Below, in pieces: positions 29,439-40,332 of a stretch of DNA of 64,000 nt. A program made the position numbers and the translations under genes. The first letter of the stretch is position 1. Each line of letters begins with the position of its first letter. The DNA comes from Microcoleus sp. FACHB-1515 (lineage in GTDB: Bacteria; Cyanobacteriota; Cyanobacteriia; Elainellales; Elainellaceae). Below the pieces are notes generated by a model, which saw only the letters and a program-made list of their open reading frames with translations, was not told the origin of the DNA and ran no database searches. The stretch covers positions 62,001 to 126,000 of the forward strand of contig NZ_JACJPO010000056.1 of the NCBI RefSeq assembly GCF_014696105.1, written 5' to 3'.

Positions 29439-29504
29439 GCTAAACTACAAACTAAGTTAAATCAGTTTGATTAATGTGTAGTGGACGCTAATCTTCAAAG
29501 CCGC

Positions 29505-29909
29505 ATGTTGTCTCATCGGTCACCTAACCTCCGCGTCCTTGTTGTGGACGATCACGAACTTATTCGCTACAGCCTCAAGATGGCGTTGCAGCGACAGCCC
29601 AACATTGAGCTAGTGGGCTTAGCCAGTAACGGTAAAGAGGCGGTCGAAATGGTTAAGCAGCATCGTCCTGACGTGGTGATTCTCGATTTACAGATGCCGA
29701 TCGTAGATGGGCTAAGCGCTTCTCTGCAAATCAAAGGCATGTATCCGCAAACGCAAATTGTCGCCTATTCCTCGGTCAAAGATCCGCAGGTTGAAGTGAT
29801 GGTTCAAACCGCCCAGGTCGATGCATTTTGCGAAAAGGAAGTGCCGATTCAAGAATTGATTAACGTCGTCACACAGCTTGGTCGGGCGGCATCTAGCCGT
29901 CAGCAGTAG
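29505..29909 (+). CDS. Stand-alone response-regulator receiver protein
   Basis: A 134-aa receiver domain of the NarL subgroup type. Visible parts: RVLVVDDHELIRYSLKMALQ with the acidic pair, VVILDLQMPIVDG with the phospho-acceptor Asp, and IVAYSSVKD with the conserved Ser. The switch Lys is in CEKEVP. The C-terminal LuxR-type HTH expected after a NarL receiver is missing, so it must work by protein contact. ATG 29505 is chosen; a GTG at 29481 would add 8 residues. No kinase gene is adjacent; the nearest is the permease-kinase fusion 1 kb away. Confidence 0.85.
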   Translation: MLSHRSPNLRVLVVDDHELIRYSLKMALQRQPNIELVGLASNGKEAVEMVKQHRPDVVILDLQMPIVDGLSASLQIKGMYPQTQIVAYSSVKDPQVEVMVQTAQVDAFCEKEVPIQELINVVTQLGRAASSRQQ

Positions 29910-30177: not shown

Positions 30178-30265
30178 GATTTGCTCCTAAATTTTTGAAA
30201 CTAGGTCGATCGACCCAGCCACAATAGTGAATAATTGTGAAGTATCTTGCTTCTATGGTATCGCG

Positions 30266-30838
30266 ATGTTTGGCCGAATCTCACTGGGATCGATCGGGTT
30301 GGTCGTTGGCGGCATATTGACCGTCACCGGATTTTATGCGTACTTTGTCGGCAATTCGACCTTGAATCTGATCGGATTTTTTTATGGCATTCCGATTTTG
30401 CTCGGCGGTTTTGCCTTGAAAGCAGCGGAGCTTCGACCCGTGCCGCAATCAGAGCCAACCCCGGAAGTTTTGCAGCTTCGATCGCAGCAGGCAACGGCAA
30501 CACAAAACCAAATTCGCAAAGACGTAACGCGCTTTCGCTATGGTCAAGAAGCGCACCTTGATAGCTCGCTGGAGCATTTGGGCATGAGTCCGTCTGACGA
30601 AGAACGCCCGCGTTTGAAGGCGTTGCGCGAAGAAGCGATCGACGGTCACTACGCGCTGATTTTGGAATTCGAGTCGCCGCTGATTAAATTTGAAACTTGG
30701 GAGCAAAAGCGCGAAAAAATGGAGCGCTTTTTTGGTCCCGGACTGCGCCTCACCCTCAAGCAGCTTCCTGAAGATGAAGTGGAAATGGCGCTGATTGCAG
30801 CTTCTGCTCCGGCTGCCGTCGCTCAGTCGAATTCTTAA
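30266..30838 (+). CDS. DUF2854 membrane protein
   Basis: A 190-aa protein with two spans near the N-terminus (SLGSIGLVVGGILTVTGFYA and LIGFFYGIPILLGGFALKAA) and a soluble C-terminal part containing RKDVTRFRYGQEAHLDSSLE, LGMSPSDEERPRL and MERFFGPGL. This matches DUF2854, found in cyanobacteria and chloroplasts, function unknown. ATG 30266 is chosen over an upstream start at 30227, which adds non-conserved residues. Its stop overlaps that of the convergent kinase gene by 4 nt. Confidence 0.85.
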   Translation: MFGRISLGSIGLVVGGILTVTGFYAYFVGNSTLNLIGFFYGIPILLGGFALKAAELRPVPQSEPTPEVLQLRSQQATATQNQIRKDVTRFRYGQEAHLDSSLEHLGMSPSDEERPRLKALREEAIDGHYALILEFESPLIKFETWEQKREKMERFFGPGLRLTLKQLPEDEVEMALIAASAPAAVAQSNS

Positions 30839-33741
30839 GCATCAATTCCAGCCAGAGCACTTTCGTGCGATTCAACTTCAGCACTGACAGCGGGAATTTG
30901 CCGCAGGGGAATTTCGATCGAAAACTCGGTTCCCTGCCCAACATCCGAAATGCACTCTAAGCGTCCGCCGTGCCGCTCGGTAATGATTTGGTGGGTGATC
31001 GCCATGCCGAGTCCTGTTCCTTTGCCGACAGGTTTGGTTGTGAAAAACGGATCGAGCAGGCGACGCTGAATTTCTTCGCTCATGCCCGAACCATTGTCGC
31101 GAATTTGAATGAAGACTTGCTGATCGATCGCGGCGGTTTGAATCGTGATGATCCCCAATCGCCCTTCGCCCACGATCGCGACCGACTGAAGATAAGCGTC
31201 TTCGATCGCATCGATCGCATTGGTGAGCAAATTCATAAACACTTGATTCAACTGTCCGGCGTAGCACTCAACCAGCGGTAAACTGCCGTACTTGCGAACG
31301 ACTTCGATCGCAGGCCGCTTGGGAGTTGCTTTGAGCCGACTTTGCAAAATCATCAGCGTACTTTCAATGCCGTCATGGATATCGACTGCTTTGACTTCGG
31401 CTTCGTCTAGTCGGGAAAAGCTGCGGAGCGATCGCACAATGTCGCAGATTCGATCGGTTCCCACCTTCATCGAGGCCAGCAGTCGCGGCAAATCTTCAAT
31501 CAAAAATGGCAAATCGATCTGAGCAATTTGCGATCGCAGAGTTGGCGTGGCGTCTGGGTAGGTTGTCTGATAGAGCGCCAATAAATTCAGGAGATCTTGC
31601 GTGTATTGACTGGCGTAATTGACGTTTGCGTGAATAAAATTGATCGGATTGTTGATTTCGTGCGCCACGCCTGCAACCAGTTGACCCAAACTCGACATTT
31701 TCTCTTGCTGAAGCATTTGCGCCTGAGTTTTTTGCAGTTCTTGAATCGTTTGCTGAAGCTGGTGGGCTTGTTGACGCAGTTGCATTTCCGATCGCAGCAG
31801 TGCCGTTTCTGCTGTTTTGCGCTCGGTGATGTCGCGCAAAATCACCATGTATTCGCTCGATCGATCGGGCAAGGTTGTGCGCGAAATCGACATTTCGACC
31901 ATGCGCTTGGTTTGATTGGGCAAACAGAGCCGCTGTTCGCTGCGATCCAACCAGCGATTCGGACTGCCTTCAAGATCGATCAGCAGTTCTGACAGTGCGG
32001 CTCCCAAAAGCGACGTTTCCGGCTGAAACAGTTCGTGCGCGGCAGGGTTGGCCTGCTGAATTCGTCCCGTTTCATCCAACACCAAAATTGCATTGAGGGC
32101 AACGCCAAACAAATGCTCGGCGCGTTCTTTTGCTTCAGCGATCGCCGTCACCTGCGGCAAACTCGTCCAGCAAGCGACGGCAATGCTGACAAACGCGACG
32201 GTCAGCAGCACAACGATAAACAGATTCGTGCTGACATCGCTGGAAGCTGTCACTAAATCCGATCGCAGCATCCAAACTAAAATCGCCGTGCCGCAAACCA
32301 GCAGCAGCAAAATGAAGACCTGAAGCGCGACGACATTTTGCTGCTGCTGAAGACGCGGGCGATCGCGCTGCATCCACCATTGCGGCTGAAACACAGGCCA
32401 GTCGAGACGGCGAATCAGCACGTCCATGCCTAAAATTGCGGCGGGCAGCAGCAAGCCCAGCAAAAAATCTTGCCAGCTCCACGCCAAACCGCCAACCACA
32501 AGGACAACGCACTCAACCGTGAAAAAAGCGATCGACCCGCGCGGCCAAATGACTTCTGGGCGATCGCGTCGCAGCCACAGACCCAGATGCAGGGCAACGA
32601 TCGAGCAAAAATAACCAGTTCCCGTCACCATGACGACACGAGACACATCGCCCCACACCACGCCCGTCAAGCTCACCAGCAAGGTGAAAATTAAGGCAGG
32701 TCCTAGCACGCCGCGCCGTGAAGCGATCGCAAAGACCGGAGCAAGATAGCCATCTTGGGCAAGCTGGTAGAGAATGCGCGGCGAATTCGAGAACCCGGTG
32801 GCGCAACTGAGCAGACAGCTTGAAACGACCAGAAACGTGACCAGCAGCGGAGTTGCACCGCCCCAGAACGGTGTGGCAGCACTGAGCAAGTTGAGAAAAG
32901 CGTTGCTGTCGGTTTCTAGTCCGTTTGACAGGCGCATCAGCACCCAAGAGCCGCCTAGGTAGACGATTGGGATCAAGCTGGCCGTCACCGACAGACAGCG
33001 CAGCGTCCAGCTTGGCTCGCGGCTGTCGGAGACAAACGAAGAAGCGGTTTCGCAGGCATAAAGCGCGTAAACAGTGATGAAAAACCACTTTGCCCACTCG
33101 ACAAAATTGAAGCTCGGCCACTGCGTCGGAAAAAATCCGGGACTGAGCGGCGAAAACATCAGCCAGCCCAATCCTTGCAGGCAAAAGGCCAGCAAAAATC
33201 CGAGGGCAGGCACGATGAAGAATAAATGCAAAATGCCCAAAGCACGAGTGCCGCTGAAGGCGACCACAAACGCCAAAACCGTAAAGCCAACCTTGAGAAT
33301 GACACCTGGACAGTGCATTCCCAGCGAGGCAAGATTAGCCTGAATCAAATCGGTGAGAATAATTGCGTTCACCAGGGGAACGGCTGCCCAGCCAAAGAAA
33401 TAGCCGATCGCCGCATAAGCCGCTAATTTTGGATGATTCTCCAGCAGGCGCGTCGTGTAGTTGGGTGTTCCGCCTGCGATCGACGGCCAAAAAGTTCCCA
33501 GCCGCTTCACCTGCAAGTTCAGCAACATGCCGACGATCACGCCCGGAATCCACACCCAAATTGCGCGATCGCCCAAAACCGCGTGCATTGCAGGCGCAGG
33601 TCCCAGCCACAGCAGCAAGCCGCTGAAGCCAAATCCCCATGATTCCGGCGAAGTCAAGCTCGGCAGCAGGCGCATTCCCACCGGAGGCTGGACGTGACCG
33701 ATTGAATTGGTTGCAGAAAGATGTTCCTGCTGATCGCTCAT
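30835..33741 (-). CDS. Amino-acid permease fused to PAS domain and histidine kinase
   Basis: A 968-aa hybrid. Residues 1 to about 530 look like an APC-superfamily permease with 12 or more spans (SPESWGFGFSGLLLWLGPAP, AIGYFFGWAAVPLVNAIILT, CATGFSNSPRILYQLAQDGY, the last being typical of the permease intracellular loop). A PAS domain (about 545-640, ILVLDETGRIQQANPAAHEL) leads through a coiled coil to a HisKA domain with the phospho-acceptor H694 in VAGVAHEINNPINF and a HATPase domain (NLLTNAIDAI, DNGSGM, TTKPVGKGTGLGMAI). It probably senses or transports an amino acid and signals to a separate regulator; no regulator is adjacent. An upstream TTG (33765) is less likely as start. Confidence 0.92.
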   Translation of the reverse strand: MSDQQEHLSATNSIGHVQPPVGMRLLPSLTSPESWGFGFSGLLLWLGPAPAMHAVLGDRAIWVWIPGVIVGMLLNLQVKRLGTFWPSIAGGTPNYTTRLLENHPKLAAYAAIGYFFGWAAVPLVNAIILTDLIQANLASLGMHCPGVILKVGFTVLAFVVAFSGTRALGILHLFFIVPALGFLLAFCLQGLGWLMFSPLSPGFFPTQWPSFNFVEWAKWFFITVYALYACETASSFVSDSREPSWTLRCLSVTASLIPIVYLGGSWVLMRLSNGLETDSNAFLNLLSAATPFWGGATPLLVTFLVVSSCLLSCATGFSNSPRILYQLAQDGYLAPVFAIASRRGVLGPALIFTLLVSLTGVVWGDVSRVVMVTGTGYFCSIVALHLGLWLRRDRPEVIWPRGSIAFFTVECVVLVVGGLAWSWQDFLLGLLLPAAILGMDVLIRRLDWPVFQPQWWMQRDRPRLQQQQNVVALQVFILLLLVCGTAILVWMLRSDLVTASSDVSTNLFIVVLLTVAFVSIAVACWTSLPQVTAIAEAKERAEHLFGVALNAILVLDETGRIQQANPAAHELFQPETSLLGAALSELLIDLEGSPNRWLDRSEQRLCLPNQTKRMVEMSISRTTLPDRSSEYMVILRDITERKTAETALLRSEMQLRQQAHQLQQTIQELQKTQAQMLQQEKMSSLGQLVAGVAHEINNPINFIHANVNYASQYTQDLLNLLALYQTTYPDATPTLRSQIAQIDLPFLIEDLPRLLASMKVGTDRICDIVRSLRSFSRLDEAEVKAVDIHDGIESTLMILQSRLKATPKRPAIEVVRKYGSLPLVECYAGQLNQVFMNLLTNAIDAIEDAYLQSVAIVGEGRLGIITIQTAAIDQQVFIQIRDNGSGMSEEIQRRLLDPFFTTKPVGKGTGLGMAITHQIITERHGGRLECISDVGQGTEFSIEIPLRQIPAVSAEVESHESALAGIDA

Positions 33742-34315: not shown

Positions 34316-35341
34316 TTACTCGTCTTCGGCAAAGACGTATTTGTACAAATCGGCGGGATCAGGTTCGGGACTTTCGATCGCAAACTGAACCGCTTCTTCA
34401 ACCAAAGCCGTGATCTTGCGATCGATTGCTTTGAGTTCTTCTGCACTGGCGAGATTGTTCTCAGTCAGGTACGCACTGAACTTTTTGATTGGGTCGCGGG
34501 CGAACCAAAATTCTTTTTCGGCTTTCGATCGCAACTCATCAGGATCGGCCAACGAGTGACCCCGGAAGCGGTAGGTCAAGCACTCAATTAGCGTGGGACC
34601 TTCACCTGCACGAGCGCGAGCAACAGCTTCTTGGGCGACTTTGTGAACCGCTAAGACATCCATGCCGTCCACTTCAACTCCGGGCATTCCAAAGACGCTG
34701 GCTTTTTTGTAGATTTCCGGCTGCGAGGTGGCGCGATCGTGCGCCATACCGATCGCCCATTTGTTATTTTCGACCACAAACAAAATCGGCAGCTTCCACA
34801 GCGCAGCCATGTTCAGACACTCGAAAAACTGTCCGTTGTTCGCTGTGCCGTCACCAAAAAAGCTGGCCGTCACCTGATCGGCAGATTCGTCGCCCAAGGC
34901 TTCACGGCGATATTTGGTTTGAAAGGCGGCTCCGGTTGCGACCGGAATGCCTTCCCCGATGAACGCATAGCCGCCCAGCAAATTGTGTTCGGCAGAAAAC
35001 AGGTGCATCGATCCGCCGCGCCCTTTGCTGCATCCGGTCACTTTACCGAACAGTTCGGCCATCACTTCGCGGGCGGGAACTCCAGCGCTGAGGGCATGGA
35101 CGTGATCGCGATAGGTGCTGCAAACGTAATCGTCAGGGCGCATCGCTTTGATCACGCCGGAAGAAACCGCTTCTTGCCCGTTGTACAAGTGGACAAACCC
35201 AAACATCTTGCCCCGATAGTACATTTCGGCGCATTTATCTTCAAAGAAGCGGCCTAACACCATGTCTTCATACAGCCGCAGCCCTTCTGCTTTGGTGATT
35301 GTAGCGGCGGCTACGGGAGGCAATGTTCTTTCTTGAACCAT
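34316..35341 (-). CDS. pdhA: Pyruvate dehydrogenase E1 component, alpha subunit
   Basis: The 341-aa TPP-dependent alpha subunit that decarboxylates pyruvate in the PDH complex. Motifs: [60 protein letters not shown] and the TPP motif [20 protein letters not shown] followed by [12 protein letters not shown]. It is close to the plastid-type enzyme. The beta subunit (pdhB) is not adjacent, as usual in cyanobacteria. crr7 follows 6 nt downstream. Confidence 0.95.
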
Positions 35342-39963: not shown

Positions 39964-40332
39964 ATGACAACAGTTTTAATTGTGGATGACAGCCCGACTT
40001 TGAGAGGCGTGCTTGCAGATGTGTTGCAGGGCATTGGCTTTGCCGTCGTTGAAGCGAAGAATGGCGTTGAGGCGAAGGCAAAGATCGAAGCGGATGCACC
40101 GGATTTGGTGATTACGGATTTGATCATGCCGCAGATGAATGGCTATGATTTGTGTCGCTGGCTAAAGCATGATCCCAATACGAGAAGTATTCCGGTTTTG
40201 ATTTGTTCGACGAAAAATCAAGAGTTCGATCGCTACTGGGGACTCAAACAAGGGGCAGATGCGTACATCGCGAAGCCGTTTCAGCCGCCGGAGTTGGTGC
40301 AGACAGTGAAGCGATTATTGCGAGGAATTTAG
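39964..40332 (+). CDS. CheY-like response regulator
   Basis: A 122-aa single receiver domain: TTVLIVDDSPTLRGVLADVL (acidic pair), PDLVITDLIMPQMNGYDLCR (phospho-acceptor Asp), VLICSTKNQEFDRYWGLKQG and ADAYIAKPFQPPELV (switch Lys). No output domain. It resembles the PilG/PilH/TaxY-type receivers of cyanobacterial phototaxis operons, but no chemotaxis genes are adjacent, so the partner is unknown. Confidence 0.9.
   Translation: MTTVLIVDDSPTLRGVLADVLQGIGFAVVEAKNGVEAKAKIEADAPDLVITDLIMPQMNGYDLCRWLKHDPNTRSIPVLICSTKNQEFDRYWGLKQGADAYIAKPFQPPELVQTVKRLLRGI

Follow-up and report, generated by a model that had tools for sequence, protein, structure and literature searches.

An APC-permease-like domain fused to a sensor histidine kinase in Microcoleus and its relatives among the cyanobacteria

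The window analysed here, a stretch of 64,000 nucleotides from Microcoleus sp. FACHB-1515, encodes an APC-homologous sensor histidine kinase, which places its product among the transporter-fused sensors. Transporter-fused kinases have been described as rare and are known chiefly with SLC5 and Amt domains. On balance, we favor the hypothesis that the protein is a membrane sensor whose input domain is a repurposed amino-acid transporter of the APC family, which would sense an amino-acid-like molecule and be coupled to the phospho-acceptor histidine H694 through two extra transmembrane helices, TM13 and TM14. A small ligand (an amino acid, or an amine, aldehyde or alcohol derivative) would bind in the central pocket formed by TM1, TM3, TM6 and TM8. 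The ensuing shift of the helix bundle would be relayed through the two extra helices, of which TM14, with its ACWTSLPQ motif, is modelled as one helix that reaches unbroken up to the PAS domain, and would alter autophosphorylation at H694. The phosphoryl group would then pass to a receiver encoded away from the sensor gene in this genome, and transport by the APC domain has probably been lost or become vestigial.

Architecture and homology of the window protein

The sensor gene is a single unbroken frame that starts with an ATG at position 33741 and specifies 968 amino acids, in which an APC fold of 12 transmembrane helices is followed by the two extra helices and by PAS, HisKA and HATPase domains (Table 1). 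The HATPase_c (81.6 bits) and PAS_8 (25.9 bits) matches are both over the Pfam cut-offs, and the HisKA match, at 21.1 bits, is under its cut-off of 26.9. H694 lies within the motif VAHEINNP, with NAIDA at 841, DNGSG at 882 and GTGLG at 908, and the H, N and G boxes and the ATPase domain of HisKA sensor histidine kinases are all present. The sequence-only reading of an APC permease domain fused to a complete PAS-HisKA-HATPase kinase is thus borne out by the frame, the profiles, the fold and the conserved boxes. The NCBIfam model T2SS_HK (NF038348) gave 254.6 bits with the window protein, under its curated cut-off of 450. A search for the same architecture across the cyanobacteria, as that reading had suggested, recovered it in many genomes at 44-72% identity in the permease domain, which argues against an artefact of assembly or reading frame.

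Table 1. Features of the sensor gene and its surroundings (positions in the window)
Feature	Position	Strand	Basis or remark
Whole sensor gene: APC-type permease domain, 2 TM, PAS, HisKA, HATPase	30835..33741	-	Frame, Pfam, AlphaFold
APC-fold core, residues 25-445, 12 TM helices	32407..33669	-	AlphaFold, fold matches, hhalign, LysP profile match
Trp45, TM1	33607..33609	-	At AdiC Ser26 position of the GSG motif (provisional); W in 113/118 members
Trp118, TM3	33388..33390	-	At AdiC Cys97 position (provisional); W in 118/118 members
Glu231, TM6	33049..33051	-	At AdiC Glu208 position (provisional); E/D in 118/118 members
Extra TM13 and TM14, residues 464-548	32098..32352	-	TM14 modelled as one helix on into PAS
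Motif A523-C-W-T-S-L-P-Q530 at membrane exit	32152..32175	-	Near-invariant; proposed coupling element
PAS domain, residues 540-643	31813..32124	-	Pfam
HisKA, residues 685-760	31462..31689	-	Phospho-acceptor H694 at 31660-31662
HATPase_c, residues 830-947	30901..31254	-	Pfam
Stand-alone receiver	29481..29909	+	Response_reg 80.7 bits
Stand-alone receiver	39964..40332	+	Response_reg 100.6 bits
DUF2854 protein, convergent	30227..30838	+	4-base overlap with the end of the sensor gene
Dehydrogenase E1 component, pyruvate-dehydrogenase type	34316..35341	-	Next gene upstream, same strand; ordinary

For the permease half of the protein, hmmscan of the window protein alone found no Pfam permease match in the first 445 residues, phmmer with the single window domain found no match in the PDB, and in the search of the window genome AA_permease reached 24.4 bits (24.8 with the neighbours in frame) at a cut-off of 24.6. 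At the level of the family, AA_permease was matched in 35 of 53 members, the family profile matched LysP (9eyd) with an E-value of 1e-5, and local hhalign comparisons with APC permeases gave E-values of about 1e-16. The AlphaFold model built from the family alignment (pLDDT 88.4) matches KimA, y+LAT1, AdiC and ApcT in fold, with DALI-scale Z scores of 28-35 over about 380-430 residues. By sequence profile and predicted fold, the permease domain is therefore homologous to the APC family. The SSF (SLC5) profile found no match in the window protein or the family profiles, so the domain is, as had been proposed, of the APC type rather than of the SLC5 type known from CbrA.

The genes flanking the sensor, for the dehydrogenase component and the DUF2854 protein, give no obvious clue to its function, and an Rfam search around the gene returned no match.

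A fused clade and its pocket residues

The window protein belongs to a clade of 118 non-redundant copies in cyanobacteria. Our domain search was positive in 38 of 386 cyanobacterial genomes, in 3 of these through fragments only, and in 57 of 195 genomes within one order, and no intact stand-alone copy of the permease domain was found among these samples. The full-length domains of the first survey (386 genomes) lie in frames of 822-1194 amino acids; the shorter frames found elsewhere can be put down to contig ends, broken genes or fragments. Maximum-likelihood analysis unites the sensor domains in a single clade with a support of 100/100, and that this clade is only found fused supports the receptor hypothesis. 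A stand-alone ancestor of the domain was sought and none was found, AdiC, LysP and the cyanobacterial APC permeases all falling outside the clade, from which they are separated by a branch with a length of 4.8 changes per column.

The nearest relatives of the window protein are those of a genome of the same genus (G386, 94% identical in the domain) and of L136 (71%). In G386, an incomplete assembly, the kinase part is out of frame with the APC-PAS part (L204:2715-5781), through either a sequencing error or decay. Local expansion has produced three tandem APC-sensor kinases, with a varying number of PAS domains in some, at L014:1667-12126 (Microcoleus), L220, L222 and L139. A plasmid collection yielded distant matches only, and those of them that carried an annotation were described as plain APC permeases. 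No paper on fusions of APC domains to histidine kinases or GGDEF domains was found among open-access articles.

The alignments by hhalign to AdiC and LysP gave the same register for TM1, although with 15% identity and low confidence per residue, so that single pocket positions are provisional. We take the roles of the AdiC residues from general knowledge of this transporter. The GSG/GTG triplet of TM1, the glycine motif with which APC transporters bind the amino-acid carboxylate, would correspond to residues 44-46 and has been replaced by a triplet with Trp45 in the middle. The position of AdiC Cys97 appears to be taken by the invariant Trp118, that of Trp202 by Tyr225, a site that is aromatic (Y, W or F) in 114 of the 118 members, and that of Trp293 by a small residue, whereas the acid of the GxE motif in TM6 is retained in Glu231, with A, G or S at the glycine position. 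In the model, TM1 is broken at residue 47 and TM6 is unbroken. This pattern of replacements, with the TM6 acid kept, is consistent with a receptor. The loss of the TM1 motif counts against transport but not against homology to the APC family. The sequence-only reading had singled out the conserved residues of the unwound helices, and here the outcome is divided, since the TM1 motif is gone and the TM6 acid remains. Its suggestion that the sensor reports amino-acid flux has become less likely with the apparent loss of the glycine motif and the bulky tryptophans predicted at two pocket positions.

It is nevertheless conceivable, if rather unlikely in our opinion, that the APC domain still works as an amino-acid transporter, its transport cycle being read by the kinase, as in a CbrA-like transceptor. 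The APC homology, including a LysP-like RxLYxLAxDG motif in TM8, fits such a function, and CbrA, which is both a histidine transporter and a histidine kinase (PMC7096432), offers an analogy that would speak against a loss of transport. On the other side stand the substitutions in TM1 and the pocket and the lack of a break in the modelled TM6. Furthermore, histidine had no effect on the kinase activities of CbrA in vitro (PMC7096432). More improbable still is a sensor of ions or osmotic conditions, in which the APC fold would provide a cation site like that of KimA or the cation-chloride cotransporters, or respond to membrane tension. The potassium importer KimA is the top VIA match of the model (Z 35) and cation-chloride cotransporters also score high, so that the ligand may be an ion, but the sequence profiles indicate amino-acid permeases and the enzymes encoded beside relatives act on amino acids.

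Outputs, coupling region and receivers

Among 125 frames, the APC-PAS-kinase arrangement is the most frequent, alongside multi-PAS forms, 14 frames in which the APC domain is joined straight to HisKA-HATPase, 17 hybrid kinase-receivers and 7 frames with a GGDEF-EAL output; the output domains were confirmed by Pfam on example frames. The GGDEF-EAL forms arose within the kinase-bearing tree. Since the APC domain is kept while the outputs change, it behaves as an input module, and that the same domain and linker feed kinases with or without PAS, hybrids and GGDEF-EAL proteins argues for the receptor hypothesis. We consider it equally improbable as an ion sensor that the APC domain is a membrane anchor only and that sensing is done by the cytoplasmic PAS domain, because, although PAS domains often sense and that of CbrA binds histidine (PMC7096432), the frames without PAS dispense with it and conservation is much higher in the APC domain, with a mean column identity of 60% against 36% for the full-length alignment.

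In the AlphaFold model, the 12-helix core is followed by TM13 (residues 464-497) and TM14 (502-548). The A523-C-W-T-S-L-P-Q530 stretch is nearly invariant, with A523 and T526 present in all 114 gap-free rows of the alignment. We propose that this stretch may be the coupling element, in the place of the STAC domain of CbrA.

The two stand-alone receivers that had been noted near the sensor gene are indeed present (Table 1). They have been rejected as its conserved partners, since neither is kept beyond the genus: the one at 29481 stays near the sensor only in the same-genus genome, with the convergent DUF2854 gene in between, and neither receiver is found beside the sensor in relatives from other genera of the family. 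In the relatives at L118 and L139, a CheY-like receiver and a REC-HK gene lie downstream of the sensor, with a 4 bp overlap at L118, and these operonic receivers are of a different kind, being just 21-34% identical to the two in the window. A REC-HK gene is likewise located downstream of most of the hybrid kinase-receiver forms.

Neighbouring enzymes, candidate ligands and known systems

Several relatives of the window protein are encoded next to enzymes that act on amino acids. A histidine decarboxylase adjoins nine sensor members, which are spread over two or more independent lineages and show three orientations; the enzyme scores 532 (L117), 423 (L011) and 489 bits (L216) at a cut-off of 305 (NF002748). 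It is convergent to the sensor in six GGDEF-EAL members (with one gene in between at L119 and one small open frame at L124), upstream on the same strand in two Nostoc kinase members and divergent at L216. The six GGDEF-EAL cases, being relatives of one another, were counted as one event, and the topology of the tree requires the association to have been gained at least twice. Histidine decarboxylases were identified in 8 of the 386 genomes and are beside the sensor in 6 of these 8; one further genome, G534 (L216), came from the survey of one order, where most other histidine decarboxylases are in sensor-free genomes. As these counts are drawn from related genomes, we put the weight on the independent lineages. 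A ParA-like ATPase and a homospermidine-synthase-like gene are kept beside the GGDEF-EAL sensor and the decarboxylase at L117:9896-12215 and in its relatives. A sensor-free histidine decarboxylase can instead adjoin a plain, ethanolamine-permease-like stand-alone APC protein (L277:7212-10966, L279:7241-9854, L280:5704-8414), and that it does so supports the receptor hypothesis. The two proteins at these loci are likely a histidine/histamine pair.

Likewise, one-module amino-acid reductases of the A-T-R or A-MT-T-R type adjoin five members (L129, L210, L213, L144 and L215) on at least two branches of the tree; three of the five are separated from the reductase gene by 9-42 bp, and the reductase of L210 carries a fused alanine racemase. 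Eight genomes examined for full-length R domains contain about one or two each. The repeated presence of the decarboxylases and A-T-R reductases beside the sensors again speaks for a receptor. The closest A-T-R relatives, at L274 and L275, are accompanied by a REC-HK and by a hybrid kinase with a Cache-HAMP input (the Cache match below the cut-off), the kinase half of which is 61-62% identical to that of L129. The exchange of APC and Cache in the same slot is an argument for ligand perception by the APC domain and hence for a receptor. In these two loci (L274:5048-12767, L275:4950-12459) the A-T-R gene lies between the REC-HK and the hybrid kinase, possibly as a set of a synthase and a receptor, the latter not of the APC type. 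A third relative, of the A-MT-T-R type (L276), has no sensor alongside within the stretch examined.

The putative A-domain specificity codes that an alignment to a GrsA sequence gave for these reductases resemble DLPT(L/I)GMVW and are mutually consistent, but they allowed no substrate to be assigned. The window genome (C52) itself has a distant A-T-R reductase, 36-38% identical to the A-T-R reductases described above, at some 90 kb from the sensor and with a histidine kinase gene upstream (L269:731-6795). HyuA/HyuB-like genes, resembling those for caprolactamase and acetophenone carboxylase, are found downstream of some Nostoc members (L013:11074-14765, L008:12830-14923). No theme is shared by the remaining genes directly beside members, among them SpoIID-like, MIF-like, radical SAM and glycoside hydrolase genes.

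Both enzyme types act on the amino-acid carboxylate and the clade has lost the carboxylate motif, a suggestive fit. We tentatively entertain the possibility that the clade includes receptors of self-made, carboxylate-free signals (amines, amino aldehydes or amino alcohols), which the neighbouring enzyme would produce and the APC domain would detect, driving a phosphorelay or a cyclic-di-GMP output, and that the window protein is an orphan receptor of this kind. However, most members have no linked enzyme, and neither does the window gene, whose genome is without a histidine decarboxylase, which counts against the receptor hypothesis. The ligands may therefore differ or be unrelated, and the inference from neighbouring enzymes is not transferable to the window protein as such. 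The earlier suggestion that the sensor reports the presence of amino acids is still plausible and has been sharpened by the enzymes beside the relatives.

Functionally, CbrA (PMC7096432, PMC13022988) and Ks-Amt5 (PMC5764959) are the nearest known systems. Like the SLC5-STAC kinases CbrA and CrbS, the window protein joins a LeuT-fold transporter domain to PAS and histidine kinase domains, histidine being the substrate of CbrA. In contrast to the SLC5 and STAC domains of CbrA, the clade has an APC (AA_permease) domain and, in the slot between transporter and PAS, two predicted transmembrane helices with the near-invariant ACWTSLPQ motif, and it feeds GGDEF-EAL outputs as well. Ks-Amt5 has lost transport, its path being closed by bulkier residues, and became a sensor for its fused kinase (PMC5764959), a precedent for the receptor hypothesis, although its fold is Amt, its ligand is ammonium and it has no PAS domain. 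A second precedent is the spore germinant receptor GerAB, an APC-fold receptor for alanine (PMC8617281). The yeast protein Ssy1 is described as an APC-fold receptor without a kinase (PMC12958826). Both resemble the clade as APC-fold receptors for amino acids, but neither is joined to a kinase or a cyclic-di-GMP enzyme. AdiC, LysP and the decarboxylase-linked permeases share the fold, sequence homology and a nearby decarboxylase gene (adiA next to adiC), but differ in being stand-alone transporters with an intact GSG/GTG motif in TM1.

Our findings describe a widespread clade of APC-type sensors in the cyanobacteria, with exchangeable outputs and a recurrent linkage to enzymes that modify amino acids. 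They suggest candidate ligands, namely histidine, histamine, amino alcohols and aldehydes, for many orphan sensors, and the clade may serve as a natural series for how a transporter turns into a receptor.
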